NCBI RefSeq assembly: GCF_000012645.1
Contig: NC_007577.1
Coordinates: forward strand, 868,001-932,000
Direction of reading: 5' to 3'
Length of the DNA stretch: 64,000 bases
Origin: Prochlorococcus marinus str. MIT 9312
GTDB lineage: Bacteria; Cyanobacteriota; Cyanobacteriia; PCC-6307; Cyanobiaceae
The position numbers and the translations under genes were made by a program. This document shows, piece after piece, positions 9,314 to 14,984 of this stretch. Below the pieces are notes generated by a model. That model saw only the letters and a list, made by a program, of their open reading frames with translations. It was not told the origin of the DNA and made no database searches. Numbering within the stretch: position 1 is the first letter of the stretch; each line of letters opens with the position of its first letter.

Positions 9314-9898
9314 ATGAGCTTAAGAGTTGGACAAGAAGCACCAGATTTCACTGCTACAGCAGTATACGATCAAGAGTTTAAGGAAATTACACTTTCAGGT
9401 CTAAGAGGTAAGTGGGTTGTTTTATTCTTTTACCCATTAGACTTTACATTTGTATGTCCAACTGAGATCACAGCATTTAGTGATAGATATCAAGATTTCT
9501 CATCAATTGATGCGGAAATACTTGGTGTATCAGTTGATAGCAAACACTGTCATTTAGCTTGGATACAAACTCCGAGAAATGAGGGTGGAATAGGTGATAT
9601 TAACTACCCATTAGTTTCTGATTTAAAAAGAGAAATTTGCCAGGCATATAACGTTTTAAATGATGATGGTGAAGCAGATAGAGGTTTATTTCTCATCAAT
9701 CCTGAAGGAATAGTTATGCATACGACTGTTAACAAAGCTCCTGTAGGTAGAAATGTTGATGAAACATTAAGAATCCTTCAAGGCTATCAATACGTCGCTG
9801 CAAACCCCGATGAAGTATGTCCTGCAAACTGGACCCCCGGGGAGAAGACAATGTTAGAGGACCCTAAAGGTAGTAAAGAATATTTTTCTGCGCTATAG
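9314..9898 (+). CDS. 2-Cys peroxiredoxin (AhpC/TSA family)
   Basis: A 194-residue typical 2-Cys peroxiredoxin that reduces H2O2 and organic peroxides using thioredoxin. The peroxidatic cysteine is Cys48 in FVCPTE and the resolving cysteine is Cys169 in EVCPANW. The catalytic [11 protein letters not shown] region is intact, and a C-terminal extension follows the resolving Cys as in over-oxidation-sensitive forms. The protein is close to the plastid/cyanobacterial 2-Cys Prx in length. It stands alone with its own promoter. Confidence 0.95.
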
Positions 9899-9913: not shown

Positions 9914-10663
9914 TTAGGTAAGTATTGAGTAGTAAATAATTATAAAAAAATAAAAAATAACCATATTCAAAAGGGGGATAATATCCCCATTTTGAGGCGT
10001 GCGTACAATCCAATCGCTTAAATTAGTTTTATATGATAAAAAAGACCACGTAAAATATGAAATTTCTATAGCGATTAAGATAAAAACATTAATTAAATTT
10101 AAGTCATTTAAACGAAAATATCTATATATATGAAACTGATCATCAACATTAATATTATTTATTTGAAGATGCCAAAGGTAAAAAGAAATCAAAATATAAT
10201 TTACCAATATTAATTTTTTAAATAAAAGCCTTGATTTCTTAAATATTAATAAAATAGAATTTAAAAGTATGAATAAACTAAACTGAAAAATATCTGGTTT
10301 TGGTAAATTATTTCCTTTAAGAAATAAATTACATATAATATCAAAATTTATATATATATAATCAGATATAAAGAACGAAAGAAATATCAAATTTATTACT
10401 ACTAATAATAATAATCCTTTACCTTTAATTTCATTATTATAGATTTTTTTATTATTAAAATTATAATATGTATAGTTTCTTAAAGAGTTAAAACATACAA
10501 AAGAGGGGCATATTGTACCGCTCAAATAATAAAGAATTGAATAAAAGGAAAAATCATTAATATTGAATAAATACAAATTAAACCATTGTTTTTGTACAAA
10601 TGGAAGAATAAGCAAGAATAAAAGTGATACTAATAACTTCGTTGAATTGTTTTTAATTATCAA
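9914..10663 (-). CDS. Multi-span membrane protein, unknown
   Basis: A 249-residue very hydrophobic protein with about six membrane spans and a notable SGTICPSFVCFNSLRNY stretch near residue 50, where two Cys could be functionally important. It starts 39 bases after the pseudo-protease FtsH gene on the same strand, so the two are probably co-transcribed. I do not recognise the family with confidence. Confidence 0.65.
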   Translation of the reverse strand: MIIKNNSTKLLVSLLFLLILPFVQKQWFNLYLFNINDFSFYSILYYLSGTICPSFVCFNSLRNYTYYNFNNKKIYNNEIKGKGLLLLVVINLIFLSFFISDYIYINFDIICNLFLKGNNLPKPDIFQFSLFILLNSILLIFKKSRLLFKKLILVNYILISFYLWHLQINNINVDDQFHIYRYFRLNDLNLINVFILIAIEISYFTWSFLSYKTNLSDWIVRTPQNGDIIPLLNMVIFYFFIIIYYSILT

Positions 10664-10702: not shown

Positions 10703-12457
10703 TCAAACTTTCAACAATTTAGAAGTTGTTAATTTAAAAACTTTTTTATCTATAGTTTCTTGAATTAAAAGTATATCAACTAATTTATCTAGTAAGACTC
10801 TATTTTTCTTCAAAATTTCTATTGAATTATTTAATGAATTTTTAGAAATTTTTATAATTTCATTATCTATTCTAGAACAAGTATTTTCTGCTATGAGAGG
10901 CTTTCTTGTAAATAATCCATCTCCCAAAAACAATTCATTATTATCAGAGTCCATTGAAATTGGACCAATAATTGAAAATCCATATTTTGTAACCATTTCT
11001 CTTACGATATTCGTCGCATAAGAGATATCATTTATGGAGCATTGTGTAATTTCACTTTCACCAAAAACTATCGTTTCTGCGGCTCTTCCTGCTAGAGCGA
11101 TTTCAATTTTCGAAAATAATAATTTTTTTGAAATCAAGCCACTAGAAATTACATCTTCGTCAGGGCACATTTTTGTATATCCTCCTAGAGATCCAGATCT
11201 AGGTAAAATTGTTATTTTATCAACTGATTCAATTCCATTTCTCACAGCAGAAACAATTGCTCTGCCTACTTCGTTATAAGCAATAATTTTCTTCATATTT
11301 GAAGAACTTGTTAAAGAACTTCTCAGGCCAATTGTAATTTTATCAAGAGCATTTTCTATATGAAGATCACTGATTAATTTTGATTCATCTCTTGCACAAT
11401 GAATAGCACTCTCGTTCATCAAATTTGCAAGATCTGCTCCAGAAAATCCAACTGTTCTTGAAGCCCAATATCCTAAGTCAACTTCCTTTGAAAGTGGTTT
11501 TGGAAGTGAATGAACTGAAAGAATTTTTTTTCTTCCATCTAAATCTGGGAGCATAACTTCTATTTTCCTATCAAATCTTCCTGGTCTTAATAATGCTGCA
11601 TCCAAAATATCTGGTCTATTTGTTGCGGCTAAAACAATAATCCCTGAATTATCGGCAAAACCATCCAACTCAGTTAGAAGCTGATTAAGGGTTTGTTCTC
11701 TTTCATCATTTCCACCTCCAATCCCAGATCCTCTTTGCCTACCAATAGAATCAATTTCATCAATAAAAATTATGCAAGGAGATTTTTCTTTAGCCTTAAA
11801 AAATAACTCCCGGACTCGGCTTGCGCCAACACCAACAAAAAGTTCTACAAATTCTGATGCCGATATTGAGAGAAAAGGAACTCCTGATTCACCGGCAATT
11901 GCTTTAGCCAATAATGTTTTACCTGTTCCAGGAGGGCCAATTAAAAGTACTCCCTTAGGAACTTTTGCTCCTAAATTTTCAAATTTTTTTGGTTCTTTCA
12001 AAAAAGTTATTACCTCTTTTAATTCCTCCGCGGCTTCAGGAACACCAGCTACATCATCGAATCTCGTGTCAACATCATCAATAGTTAGAAATTTAGCTTT
12101 ATTTTTGGTAAAACCAAAGGCTCTAGAAGCTAATTTTGATGTACTCCTCAAGATTAGGACTATAGCTAATATAAAAATCAGGAAAAGACTGATTGAAGCA
12201 AATGAATTAGCAGCTGAGGCTTCTTTTCTACTATTATTAACTGTAAGTTCAACTTTATTTTCAGTAGCCTTTTCTAGGATTAATTGATCGTTGTAAAGGA
12301 TAGGTATTTTAAATTTGTCGCCATTTTTATACAGAACATCAATTTCTCTTTGTCTAGGATAGAAAAATATTGATTCTATTTTTCCCGCCTCTATATCCTC
12401 TAGAAGATCTGAATAACTTGATCTAGAATTTGAATATGAGAATTTTGATCTAAACAC
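10703..12457 (-). CDS. FtsH homologue with intact AAA ATPase but lost protease motif
   Basis: A 584-residue FtsH-family protein. The AAA module is complete: Walker A GPPGTGKT, Walker B IIFIDEID, and the second region of homology with [21 protein letters not shown]. The zinc-protease site that should read HExxH reads N395-E-V-G-R399, so both zinc-binding histidines are gone and proteolysis is not expected. The N-terminal FtsH extracytoplasmic domain is present (residues about 15-75), but only the second membrane span (about 88-106) is seen. The start is GTG with an in-frame stop 9 bases upstream. Likely role: an unfoldase or chaperone subunit, possibly mixed with active FtsH, as for plastid FtsHi. 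Confidence 0.9.
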
Positions 12458-12762: not shown

Positions 12763-13089
12763 TTATGATCCTAATTTAAATGCCTCAAGTATAACGGCAT
12801 AAATTGCACCGATTCTTAATTTATCAATTACGGACCATACATCATAAAATTTTGAACTTGAGGAAGGCTTGATTCTTATAATAATTTCAATAAAAACGAT
12901 AATTATTGGAACCATTATTAACTCATTTTTACCTTCAGATATAAATTTTGTAAGAAAATTTGCGAACAAAAAATAACCTGTCAATACTGAAATTAGACTA
13001 ATAGATTTTGACCTCCAAGTATCACTTAGAAAACCAAAAAGTAAATTATTTAATTTGTAGGTAATTCTTGAAAAATTAGTTTTTTGCAT
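12763..13089 (-). CDS. ycf20: Ycf20-like protein (DUF565)
   Basis: A 108-residue protein with two or three membrane segments and the family ending KLRIGAIYAVILEAFKLGS, preceded by an internal W-R-S motif typical of Ycf20. In plants and algae Ycf20 proteins influence non-photochemical quenching; the cyanobacterial role is not settled. It overlaps the upstream HAD gene by 14 bases, so translation is probably coupled. Confidence 0.8.
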   Translation of the reverse strand: MQKTNFSRITYKLNNLLFGFLSDTWRSKSISLISVLTGYFLFANFLTKFISEGKNELIMVPIIIVFIEIIIRIKPSSSSKFYDVWSVIDKLRIGAIYAVILEAFKLGS

Positions 13090-13840
13090 TATTAACAGTC
13101 ATTAAATAATCACTTAGGAAGCTATGGTCAACATATGATTTTTTTAGTTTAGGACCTTTGATTACGTTTGCCACATTATTATCATCACCAAGACTGTTTA
13201 AAATACAATCTAATTTAATATTTTCATCAAGAACTATTGGGATATTTGAAGGAACAAAAATTGTCGGTAAATTAGCTGCTAAGGAAGATTTCAATCCTGG
13301 ATTAGAGTCTTCGAAAACTATTGAGTTATTTTCTTTTATACCACTTAATTGAATTGCCTTAAAATAAGGTAATGGATTTGGTTTCTTTAATTCAACATCT
13401 TCACTTGAAATAATGAACTCAAAGGGATTGAAGCCATTAAATAGATATTCAAGAAGTAAATCAACTTGTTTTCTTGAACTTGAAGTAACAATAAATTGTC
13501 TTACTTTTTTTCTATGTAATTCCTTTATTAATCTAAAAACACCAGTTTTAAATTCAACGCAATTTTTTTTTATTATTTCTAGATAATGAAACTGTTTTCT
13601 TTCATGAATTTTGAAAATCAAATCTTCAGAAAAGTTATCATTATTTGATTTAGAGTAGTAAGCAATCCTATTTTTGCCCCCATTTATTTTCAGAAGTTCT
13701 ATGTATTTTTTTGCGTCCCAATTCCAATTAATAGAAAGGTCTTTAAAGGCATTATTAAAAGCAGGTAAATGAGCCTCTAATTCAGTATTTGCGATAGTAC
13801 CATCTAAATCCCAATAAACACCCTCGAGATTAGTATTCAC
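13076..13840 (-). CDS. HAD-superfamily hydrolase (CbbY/beta-phosphoglucomutase-like)
   Basis: A 254-residue haloacid dehalogenase-type phosphatase. Motif I is WDLDGTIANTE at the N-terminus. Motif II is the VTSSSRKQV region, motif III the Lys in LKKPNPLPYF, and motif IV FEDSNPGLKSSLAA. The cap lies between motifs I and II, as in subfamily I. This set matches CbbY/phosphoglycolate phosphatase-like enzymes. The substrate cannot be read from sequence. Confidence 0.85.
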   Translation of the reverse strand: MNTNLEGVYWDLDGTIANTELEAHLPAFNNAFKDLSINWNWDAKKYIELLKINGGKNRIAYYSKSNNDNFSEDLIFKIHERKQFHYLEIIKKNCVEFKTGVFRLIKELHRKKVRQFIVTSSSRKQVDLLLEYLFNGFNPFEFIISSEDVELKKPNPLPYFKAIQLSGIKENNSIVFEDSNPGLKSSLAANLPTIFVPSNIPIVLDENIKLDCILNSLGDDNNVANVIKGPKLKKSYVDHSFLSDYLMTVNNAKN

Positions 13841-14010: not shown

Positions 14011-14358
14011 ATGAAATCATGGACATGTATAGAAAATTGCGGAGCTTGTTGTAAATTCAACTTGAACGAAAGAACTGAAATAACTGACAAACTTAACAAA
14101 GAAGATATAGAATTAATAAATTCAATGACAGCTAAAGACGGATGGTGTAAAAATTTAGATAGAGAAAATAAAAAATGCTTAATTTATGAAACAAGACCTC
14201 ACTTTTGCCGTGTAAATGAATTTTCAACTTCTTTTGAAGGATATTTTAAATATGGAGATAAATTTCTTATAGATTGCTGTAAACAGCATATTTCCTCAAA
14301 TTATGGATACAAAAGTAAAGAGATGAAAAATTTTAAAAAGGCAGTTTCAGAAAAATGA
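14011..14358 (+). CDS. YkgJ-type cysteine cluster protein
   Basis: 115 residues with the family pattern of Cys: CIENCGACC near the start, then GWCKNL, KCLIYETRPHFCRV and a late CC pair. These Cys probably bind zinc or an iron-sulfur centre. The function of the family is unknown. Its last 4 bases overlap the first GDT1 half-gene, so the three genes to 14984 look like one operon. Confidence 0.8.
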   Translation: MKSWTCIENCGACCKFNLNERTEITDKLNKEDIELINSMTAKDGWCKNLDRENKKCLIYETRPHFCRVNEFSTSFEGYFKYGDKFLIDCCKQHISSNYGYKSKEMKNFKKAVSEK

Positions 14359-14681
14359 ACAGTAAATTAGAAAATAAGGAGAACAATATAGAAAAAAGTT
14401 TCTTATCTATATTTATTACAACTTTTACAACAATTTTTATTGCTGAACTTGGAGATAAAACCCAGATAGCAACACTAATGCTTTCTGCTGAATCGGGGAA
14501 GCCAATAATTGTTTTTCTTGGAAGTTCTCTTGCTTTAATAAGTTCTAGTGTAGTAGGAGTTCTTATTGGTAAATGGTTATCTAAAAAAATATCTCCAAGT
14601 AAATTTGCTTTATTTACAGGTGCTTTAATGATAATAATAAGTTTATTTTTATCCTATGAAACTCTCAAAAATTATTTATAA
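14355..14681 (+). CDS. GDT1/TMEM165-family half transporter A
   Basis: A 108-residue protein with about three membrane spans and one ELGDKTQ motif (around residue 35), the hallmark of the UPF0016/GDT1 family of Mn2+/Ca2+ transporters. Usual family members have two such motifs in one chain. Here each half is its own gene and the partner starts immediately downstream with no gap. The pair presumably forms a heterodimer that exports Mn2+ to the thylakoid lumen or out of the cell. Confidence 0.85.
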   Translation: MNSKLENKENNIEKSFLSIFITTFTTIFIAELGDKTQIATLMLSAESGKPIIVFLGSSLALISSSVVGVLIGKWLSKKISPSKFALFTGALMIIISLFLSYETLKNYL

Positions 14682-14984
14682 ATGGTTTTAAGTTTATTAC
14701 TGTCAACATTTTTAACCGTTTTTATAGCTGAATTAGGTGACAAAACCCAACTGGCTACTTTAACTATAAGCGGCACTTCAAATAAACCATTAGCAGTTTT
14801 TTTAGGATCCTCATCTGCACTTGTCTTTGCAAGTTTATTAGGAGCATTGACTGGTGGTTCTATTTCTAGTTTTTTACCCGAAGTAGTTCTTAAATCAATA
14901 GCCTCCATAACATTTTTTATTATTGGTATAAGGCTTTTTGTAAATTCATTCTCTATGGATAAACAAGAAAAAGAAGACAATTAA
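14682..14984 (+). CDS. GDT1/TMEM165-family half transporter B
   Basis: A 100-residue partner of the preceding gene, with its own ELGDKTQ motif (about residue 17) and three membrane spans. The first 50 residues align by eye with the first half (IFIAELGDKTQIATL versus VFIAELGDKTQLATL), showing ancient duplication. The ATG directly follows the stop of the first half, which supports co-translation. Confidence 0.85.
   Translation: MVLSLLLSTFLTVFIAELGDKTQLATLTISGTSNKPLAVFLGSSSALVFASLLGALTGGSISSFLPEVVLKSIASITFFIIGIRLFVNSFSMDKQEKEDN

Follow-up and report, generated by a model that had tools for sequence, protein, structure and literature searches.

A predicted protease-dead FtsH homologue with a retained AAA motor in a clade of Prochlorococcus and its small-genome relatives

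We analysed a stretch of 64,000 nucleotides from Prochlorococcus marinus str. MIT 9312 (contig NC_007577.1, positions 868,001 to 932,000; hereafter the window), which carries on its minus strand a gene for an FtsH homologue of 584 amino acids (Table 1). The protein has the domain order of the FtsH family, with AAA (PF00004, 158.2 bits) followed by Peptidase_M41 (PF01434, 152.2 bits), and Pfam also recovers the AAA lid and FtsH_ext (PF06480, the first 26 positions of the profile being absent). The NCBIfam equivalog TIGR01241, named 'ATP-dependent zinc metalloprotease FtsH', is matched at 643.8 bits against a cut-off of 600, and an automatic pipeline would therefore probably annotate this protein as a protease. 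The original prediction held that its zinc-protease motif HExxH has been lost and that the AAA motifs and the downstream Asp remain, and the minus-strand reading frame bears out both statements: the site reads NEVGR, with Asn395 encoded by AAC (11273-11275, minus strand) and Arg399 by AGA (11261-11263, minus strand), and Walker A, Walker B, the pore loop, the Arg-finger segment and the acidic third ligand Asp477 are all present. In descriptive terms this is an FtsHi protein, in which AAA is retained and HExxH mutated. Such a site is neither a chance occurrence nor common in the FtsH family, given that HExxH was found in 70 of the 71 usable frames from 80 FtsH-like loci of bacteria at large, mostly of other phyla, that the sole exception (L203) is the same gene in Prochlorococcus sp. 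AG-442-M23, and that the other three of the four M41 genes in the window's genome (1,709,204 bases, one contig) keep HExGH.

Table 1. Features of the ftsH locus, in window coordinates.
Feature	Position	Strand	Remarks
ftsH gene, predicted pseudoprotease; picocyanobacterial 'FtsH4', assigned to the FtsH1/type-B group	10703..12457	-	584 aa, GTG start; TIGR01241 and Pfam
Predicted pseudo-active site Tyr394-Asn395-Glu396-Val397-Gly398-Arg399-Ala400 (active form Y-H-E-x-G-H-A)	11258..11278	-	
Asp477, position of the third zinc ligand in active FtsH	11027..11029	-	Asp in 55/61 genomes of the window's genus
M41 peptidase domain, residues 385-574; site lost, fold predicted intact	10736..11305	-	PF01434, 152.2 bits; AlphaFold model
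AAA ATPase core and lid, about residues 130-375	11333..12070	-	PF00004 residues 170-301; PF17862 residues 326-368
Walker A GPPGTGKT, residues 174-181	11915..11938	-	61/61 in the window's genus
Pore loop FVELFVGVG, residues 203-211	11825..11851	-	
Walker B IIFIDEID, residues 229-236	11750..11773	-	
Second region of homology, Arg-finger segment RPGRFDR, residues 291-297	11567..11587	-	
Single predicted membrane helix, residues 81-109	12131..12217	-	Hydropathy; DSSP of the model
DUF565 small protein, conserved upstream neighbour	12763..13089	-	36/37 orthologue loci
HAD-family hydrolase, conserved upstream neighbour	13076..13840	-	36/37 orthologue loci
Presumed peroxiredoxin, downstream convergent neighbour	9314..9898	+	Same 10 kb in 17/37 orthologue loci

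The frames of the HAD-family hydrolase and the DUF565 protein, the latter presumably Ycf20-like, overlap by 14 bases and lie upstream of ftsH across the family; it is possible that the pair and ftsH are functionally linked. On the other side of ftsH stands a plus-strand frame that we take from its sequence to be a peroxiredoxin, and between the two lies a hydrophobic minus-strand frame of 249 amino acids (9914-10663) with no Pfam match. All 42 flanked loci of the window's genus carry this frame, at 45-83% identity when the window's own copy is left aside and with some copies truncated where a contig ends; at E 1e-4 none of the 40 ten-kb loci taken from other genera had a match to it. Two adjoining small membrane frames at 14355-14984 on the plus strand, each containing ELGDKTQ, look like what we presume to be a split TMEM165/GDT1-type transporter.

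The site was then compared among orthologues in a chosen set of genomes: of 203 searched genomes of the window's genus we read 61, and of 138 belonging to other genera, 54. The motif is altered in 71 orthologues (hereafter dead copies, those with HExxH being live): the window's genus contributes 61 genomes, three other genera with small genomes contribute nine (L084-L092), and the last copy (L153) is from G200, a genome of a further genus. Position 399, the second His of the motif, is Arg or Lys in every one of the 71. At position 395, the first His, 64 copies have Asn, four have Gln, and one each has Tyr, Arg and His. The single copy that retains the first His (L085, genome G220) reads HEAGR; with the first His and Glu still in place and the second His already Arg, its sequence may represent an intermediate state. 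Glu396 is retained in 66/71 and the third-ligand Asp in 61/71, as might be expected of a still-active metalloprotease with an unorthodox site, but 70 of the 71 copies have neither His ligand and one genus reads QIIGK, having dropped the catalytic Glu too, and we regard continued protease activity as very improbable.

Within the window's genus the substitutions are fixed, as had been predicted. Asn395 is found in 61/61 genomes through two codons (AAC in 48, AAT in 13) and Glu396 in 61/61, likewise through two codons, and Arg399 is found in 60/61 through five Arg codons, the remaining genome having Lys. The presence of non-His residues at both positions in all 61 genomes, with synonymous variation in the altered codons, leads us to reject a sequencing error or strain-specific mutation, the chance of which is practically negligible. 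The concern attached to the original prediction, that other strains might keep HExxH at this locus, is unfounded for the window's genus and its sister genera, but it does apply farther out in the family: 44/44 orthologues of other Cyanobiaceae read HE[V/I]GH, and the copy of strain MIT9313 is intact (HEIGH). Genome G241 was recognized as this strain because a published FtsH4 primer for MIT9313 matches it exactly, as it does no other of the 222 genomes scanned.

Dead and live copies share the gene order HAD hydrolase, DUF565, ftsH, with each of the two neighbours found in 36 of the 37 ten-kb loci, and the presumed peroxiredoxin lies within the same 10 kb in 17 of the 37, including all nine dead ones; this shared order supports the orthology of the two kinds of copy. 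The FtsH tree unites the dead copies in a single clade, on long branches and with a support of 0.945. An RpoB tree of 29 genomes (30 were sought and one had no match) likewise placed all dead-copy genomes in one clade (support 0.879), and upon adding MIT9313 and a close relative this clade was recovered with a support of 0.923 in FastTree and an ultrafast bootstrap of 87 in IQ-TREE, with MIT9313 outside it among small genomes with HExGH and some of the inner nodes of the clade weak. Two genomes with unassembled loci were also placed by RpoB, G311 inside the dead clade and G212 outside. The RpoB trees set MIT9313 and several HExGH genomes of 1.7-2.0 Mb apart from the dead-copy clade, with G217, G201 and G254 between; as this branching comes from one gene, it is uncertain.

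Synteny, the FtsH tree and the RpoB tree together fit one loss, and the simplest history is that the second His was lost once and that the first was replaced later, in separate lineages. The second His would have become a basic residue in the ancestor of a clade that includes the high-light strains and SS120 and excludes MIT9313, and the first would have been replaced on several later occasions (by Asn, Tyr, Gln or Arg); this order is suggested by L085, which still has the first His.

To describe selection on the dead gene, dN/dS was estimated against the window's gene by the Nei-Gojobori method in eight genomes, giving 0.071-0.116 overall, 0.040-0.077 in the AAA domain and 0.109-0.202 in M41. 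The corresponding values for the live paralogues were 0.014-0.033, 0.002-0.023 and 0.013-0.035 (the FtsH4-type paralogue being used in six of nine genomes), such that the overall value of the dead gene is about 2.5 to 8 times theirs; distant pairs (pS >0.5) in this comparison are near saturation. For live orthologues we used the 12 pairs of lowest pS among 82 with pS <0.66, of which seven within-genus pairs gave dN/dS of 0.034-0.058; the other five, all between genera (dN 0.20-0.25), gave 0.24-0.30, which we attribute to saturated, biased third positions and set aside. The dead gene is therefore under purifying selection, in agreement with what had been proposed, and this selection is roughly twofold weaker than on the live orthologues. 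The ratio of M41 to AAA dN/dS is about 2-3, not above that of live copies, and the relaxed constraint extends to the AAA domain and is not confined to M41. Among the M41 columns only 36% are invariant in the window's genus, and the Walker A residues, the Asp-Glu of Walker B and the Arg-finger residues are conserved in 61/61 genomes.

The elevated dN/dS relative to the live paralogues could be read as the mark of a decaying relic, in which the protease had become useless in small genomes and the remainder is drifting toward loss. The differences between clades at position 395 point the same way, as do the in-alignment stops flagged in five search rows (G220, G230, G275, G266 and G334) and the most eroded member of the group, the G200 orthologue (L153, 379-2100, plus strand), whose pseudo-site is RNASK and whose PF01434 score is only 99 bits. 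The overall dN/dS of 0.07-0.12 is low for such decay, however, and Asn395 and Arg399 are held almost without exception in the window's genus despite codon variation. Each of the 71 dead orthologues retrieved, a set chosen among full-length matches and including that of G200, moreover has an open frame, and in G220, G230 and G275, the three of the five flagged rows whose loci were retrieved, the stop falls just ahead of the point where the open frame starts. We also followed up seven draft genomes in which no fourth M41 gene was found (G099, G103, G129, G184, G195, G212 and G311), five of them from the 67 genomes at least 90% complete with paralogue-level matches alone and two from a further search; G243 also had paralogue-level matches alone in the search. 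In these seven the HAD neighbour is missing as well (G099, G103, G184 and G212), has weak matches of 23-27% identity (G129) or falls at a contig end (G195 and G311), so the absence of ftsH is most likely an assembly gap, and we treated it as such and not as true gene loss. No clean deletion of the gene was seen among the seven, and on balance we consider a relic quite unlikely.

The product has a membrane anchor ahead of AAA, and it lacks the first helix of canonical FtsH, with no N-terminal hydrophobic segment upstream in frame. The same was observed in 29 of the 30 picocyanobacterial orthologues of the tree set, which have no 19-residue segment with a mean Kyte-Doolittle hydropathy >1.3 before the conserved Tyr-Ser in frame; the exception is L114 (2.18), L037 comes near (1.27), and FtsH1-type genes of other cyanobacteria reach 1.3-1.95 on this measure. 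As the missing segment is common to live orthologues, the trait predates the loss of the protease site. Live picocyanobacterial FtsH1-type genes (L067-L118) mostly lack a hydrophobic N-terminal segment in frame, so that a domain on the lumenal side would have to be inserted N-out by way of a single helix. AlphaFold predicts an FtsH fold (mean pLDDT 78.7, pTM 0.54) in which the pseudo-site lies in a confident helix at residues 386-407 (pLDDT 93 for 391-400 and 89 for 401-410). A fold search with this model matched both bacterial FtsH (3kds_E, 50% identity, TM 0.82 by target) and a chain of the plant Ycf2-FtsHi complex (8xku_E, 36% identity, TM 0.79 by target). An FtsH-like fold is expected, because the alignment supplied to the predictor, drawn from the FtsH-like loci of bacteria at large, is of FtsH, and it is no evidence for function; since FtsH relatives share this fold, the match does not discriminate between hypotheses.

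In a tree built without dead sequences (LG+F+R5), the FtsH1-type clade of other cyanobacteria encloses the live orthologues of picocyanobacteria, with an ultrafast bootstrap of 97-100. Best matches agree: 13 of 15 live queries hit the FtsH1-type copy in 7/7 panel genomes and the other two in 6/7 and 5/7, and among nine dead queries two did so in 7/7, six in 6/7 and one in 5/7. A tree with dead and live sequences together placed the whole picocyanobacterial clade outside type B; on account of its long branches it was set aside for deep placement, and the dead copies were tied to type B through their synteny with live orthologues. These trees contain no known Synechocystis sequence, and the link to Synechocystis FtsH1 runs through Bonisteel 2018 (PMC6300248), which in its available portion assigns picocyanobacterial FtsH4 to FtsH1 of strain 6803 and calls this assignment 'less obvious' than the others; two MED4 FtsH4 primers of that study match the MED4 copy of the window's gene exactly. 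Judged by sequence, the gene in the window would thus represent the FtsH1 (type B) group in picocyanobacteria.

According to the accessible text of PMC9020784, FtsH1 and FtsH2 are type B and FtsH3 is type A, an FtsH1/FtsH3 complex exists in Synechocystis, and inactivating the protease of the type-B subunit leaves PSII repair uncompromised, whereas inactivating its ATPase compromises repair; these experiments concern PSII repair, and hence the FtsH2/FtsH3 complex and not FtsH1. The type-A copy keeps HEAGH in 15/15 loci read from genomes of the dead-copy clade, and the window's genome itself has an intact type-A FtsH with HEAGH, a homologue of Synechocystis FtsH3 (L001); in MED4 the type-A FtsH is the isoform numbered FtsH2.

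The explanation that we prefer for these observations, to which we assign a probability of roughly 0.55, is that the protein acts as a non-cutting type-B subunit in a mixed hexamer with active type-A FtsH. Under this reading the dead subunit would bind and hydrolyse ATP, thread substrate and help to hold the ring without cutting, and would alternate with the intact type-A FtsH, giving a full motor ring with about half of the cutting sites. The change of the second His would have been tolerable if type-B cutting was dispensable, and a mixed ring would explain this tolerance along with the retention of the motor and of the M41 fold, which is part of the ring. We infer the loss of zinc and of activity, the mixed assembly and the function from sequence. 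More speculatively, Arg or Lys at position 399 may occupy the place of the zinc's charge and neutralise Glu396 and Asp477. The literature searched held no interaction, ATPase or protease results for the Prochlorococcus protein. In the portions available, the Prochlorococcus FtsH expression literature describes the MED4 ftsH transcript pool as mainly isoforms 1-3, and an ocean-protein figure legend of PMC11262661 lists FtsH1-3 only, which suggests that the dead subunit may be scarce.

The original prediction had instead envisaged a protease-free AAA motor. Its premises stand, in that the protease site is lost and the ATPase parts are kept, and the motor motifs are intact, as would be required of a stand-alone homohexameric unfoldase or membrane-protein dislocase resembling the plant Ycf2-FtsHi motor, which the model resembles as well as it does bacterial FtsH. 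That resemblance is non-discriminating, however; the group from which the gene comes is type B, found with FtsH3 in Synechocystis, and with canonical sites in the genome's other three M41 genes, a second dead subunit of the kind plants have is lacking. We therefore judge a stand-alone motor unlikely, and as the Synechocystis member of the group mixes with active FtsH3, a half-dead mixed protease is likelier than a pure motor. A broader proposal, offered only tentatively, is that the zinc-free pseudo-site with a constant Arg/Lys in place of the metal could itself have been selected, whether for a pure AAA motor acting on membrane proteins or for a half-dead ring of FtsH1/FtsH3 type whose slower or partial proteolysis would suit a minimal phototroph.

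Our preferred reading, the mixed ring, can be set against several known systems. FtsHi1-5 of plants and algae likewise have the FtsH architecture with the AAA motor kept and HExxH replaced, for instance by NEAAM in FtsHi2 and REAAV in FtsHi4 in the available part of PMC11266112. Their origin appears to be independent, in that the Prochlorococcus loss is nested among HExGH picocyanobacterial orthologues (in trees without plant sequences), and the plant proteins are described, in the sources as available, as acting with FtsH12 and Ycf2 at the chloroplast envelope, whereas a mixed ring with active FtsH is expected of the Prochlorococcus protein. Another is Synechocystis FtsH1 (Slr1390), the type-B partner of FtsH3, which falls in the same orthologous group by the tree of live members, best matches and Bonisteel 2018; in contrast to it, the Prochlorococcus protein lacks both zinc His residues and the N-terminal hydrophobic segment. 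Synechocystis FtsH1 is presumably one of the 'two essential FtsH proteases' named in the title of Krynicka 2014. The engineered type-B protease-dead FtsH of Zhang 2010 and Yu 2013, as cited in the accessible portion of PMC9020784, also keeps the ATPase, lacks the zinc site and has an active type-A partner, but it is a laboratory mutant in the FtsH2 line, whereas the state in Prochlorococcus is natural, fixed and in the FtsH1 line.

Among dead copies, the orthologue in genome G205 (L088), which we take to be P. marinus SS120, reads NEAGK. A bacterial counterpart of the plant FtsHi proteins, as envisaged in the original prediction, had already been published: Mishra et al. 2019 (PMC6460958) and Mishra and Funk 2021 (PMC8197885) both record, in the text accessible, one presumably inactive FtsH (FtsHi) in SS120, which is very likely the same gene as L088. 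Lineage-wide fixation, orthology, selection and mechanism of a dead FtsH were not found in the literature searched, which lay mostly outside subscription journals and included full texts in part, and the available portions of the Prochlorococcus FtsH expression papers PMC6300248, PMC11262661 and PMC11287208 make no mention of an inactive FtsH.

Protease homologues that have lost their catalytic residues also occur in cyanobacteria as pseudo-orthocaspases, which belong to the unrelated caspase family and are not known to have an ATPase motor. These are likewise conserved, with catalytic residues replaced, in the part of PMC6426788 available. For FtsH, the NCBIfam annotation and the tables of isoforms hide the difference between MED4, with a dead copy, and MIT9313, with an intact one; Table 1 of PMC11262661, in the portion available, gives the function of Prochlorococcus FtsH4 as 'cell viability', taken from Slr1390. 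Picocyanobacteria dominate oligotrophic oceans (PMC6300248, in its available part), and what this clade carries looks like a natural, clade-wide version of a laboratory result, one FtsH type being protease-dead in a mixed ring; the reason for which photosynthetic organisms retain subunits of two types thereby becomes testable.
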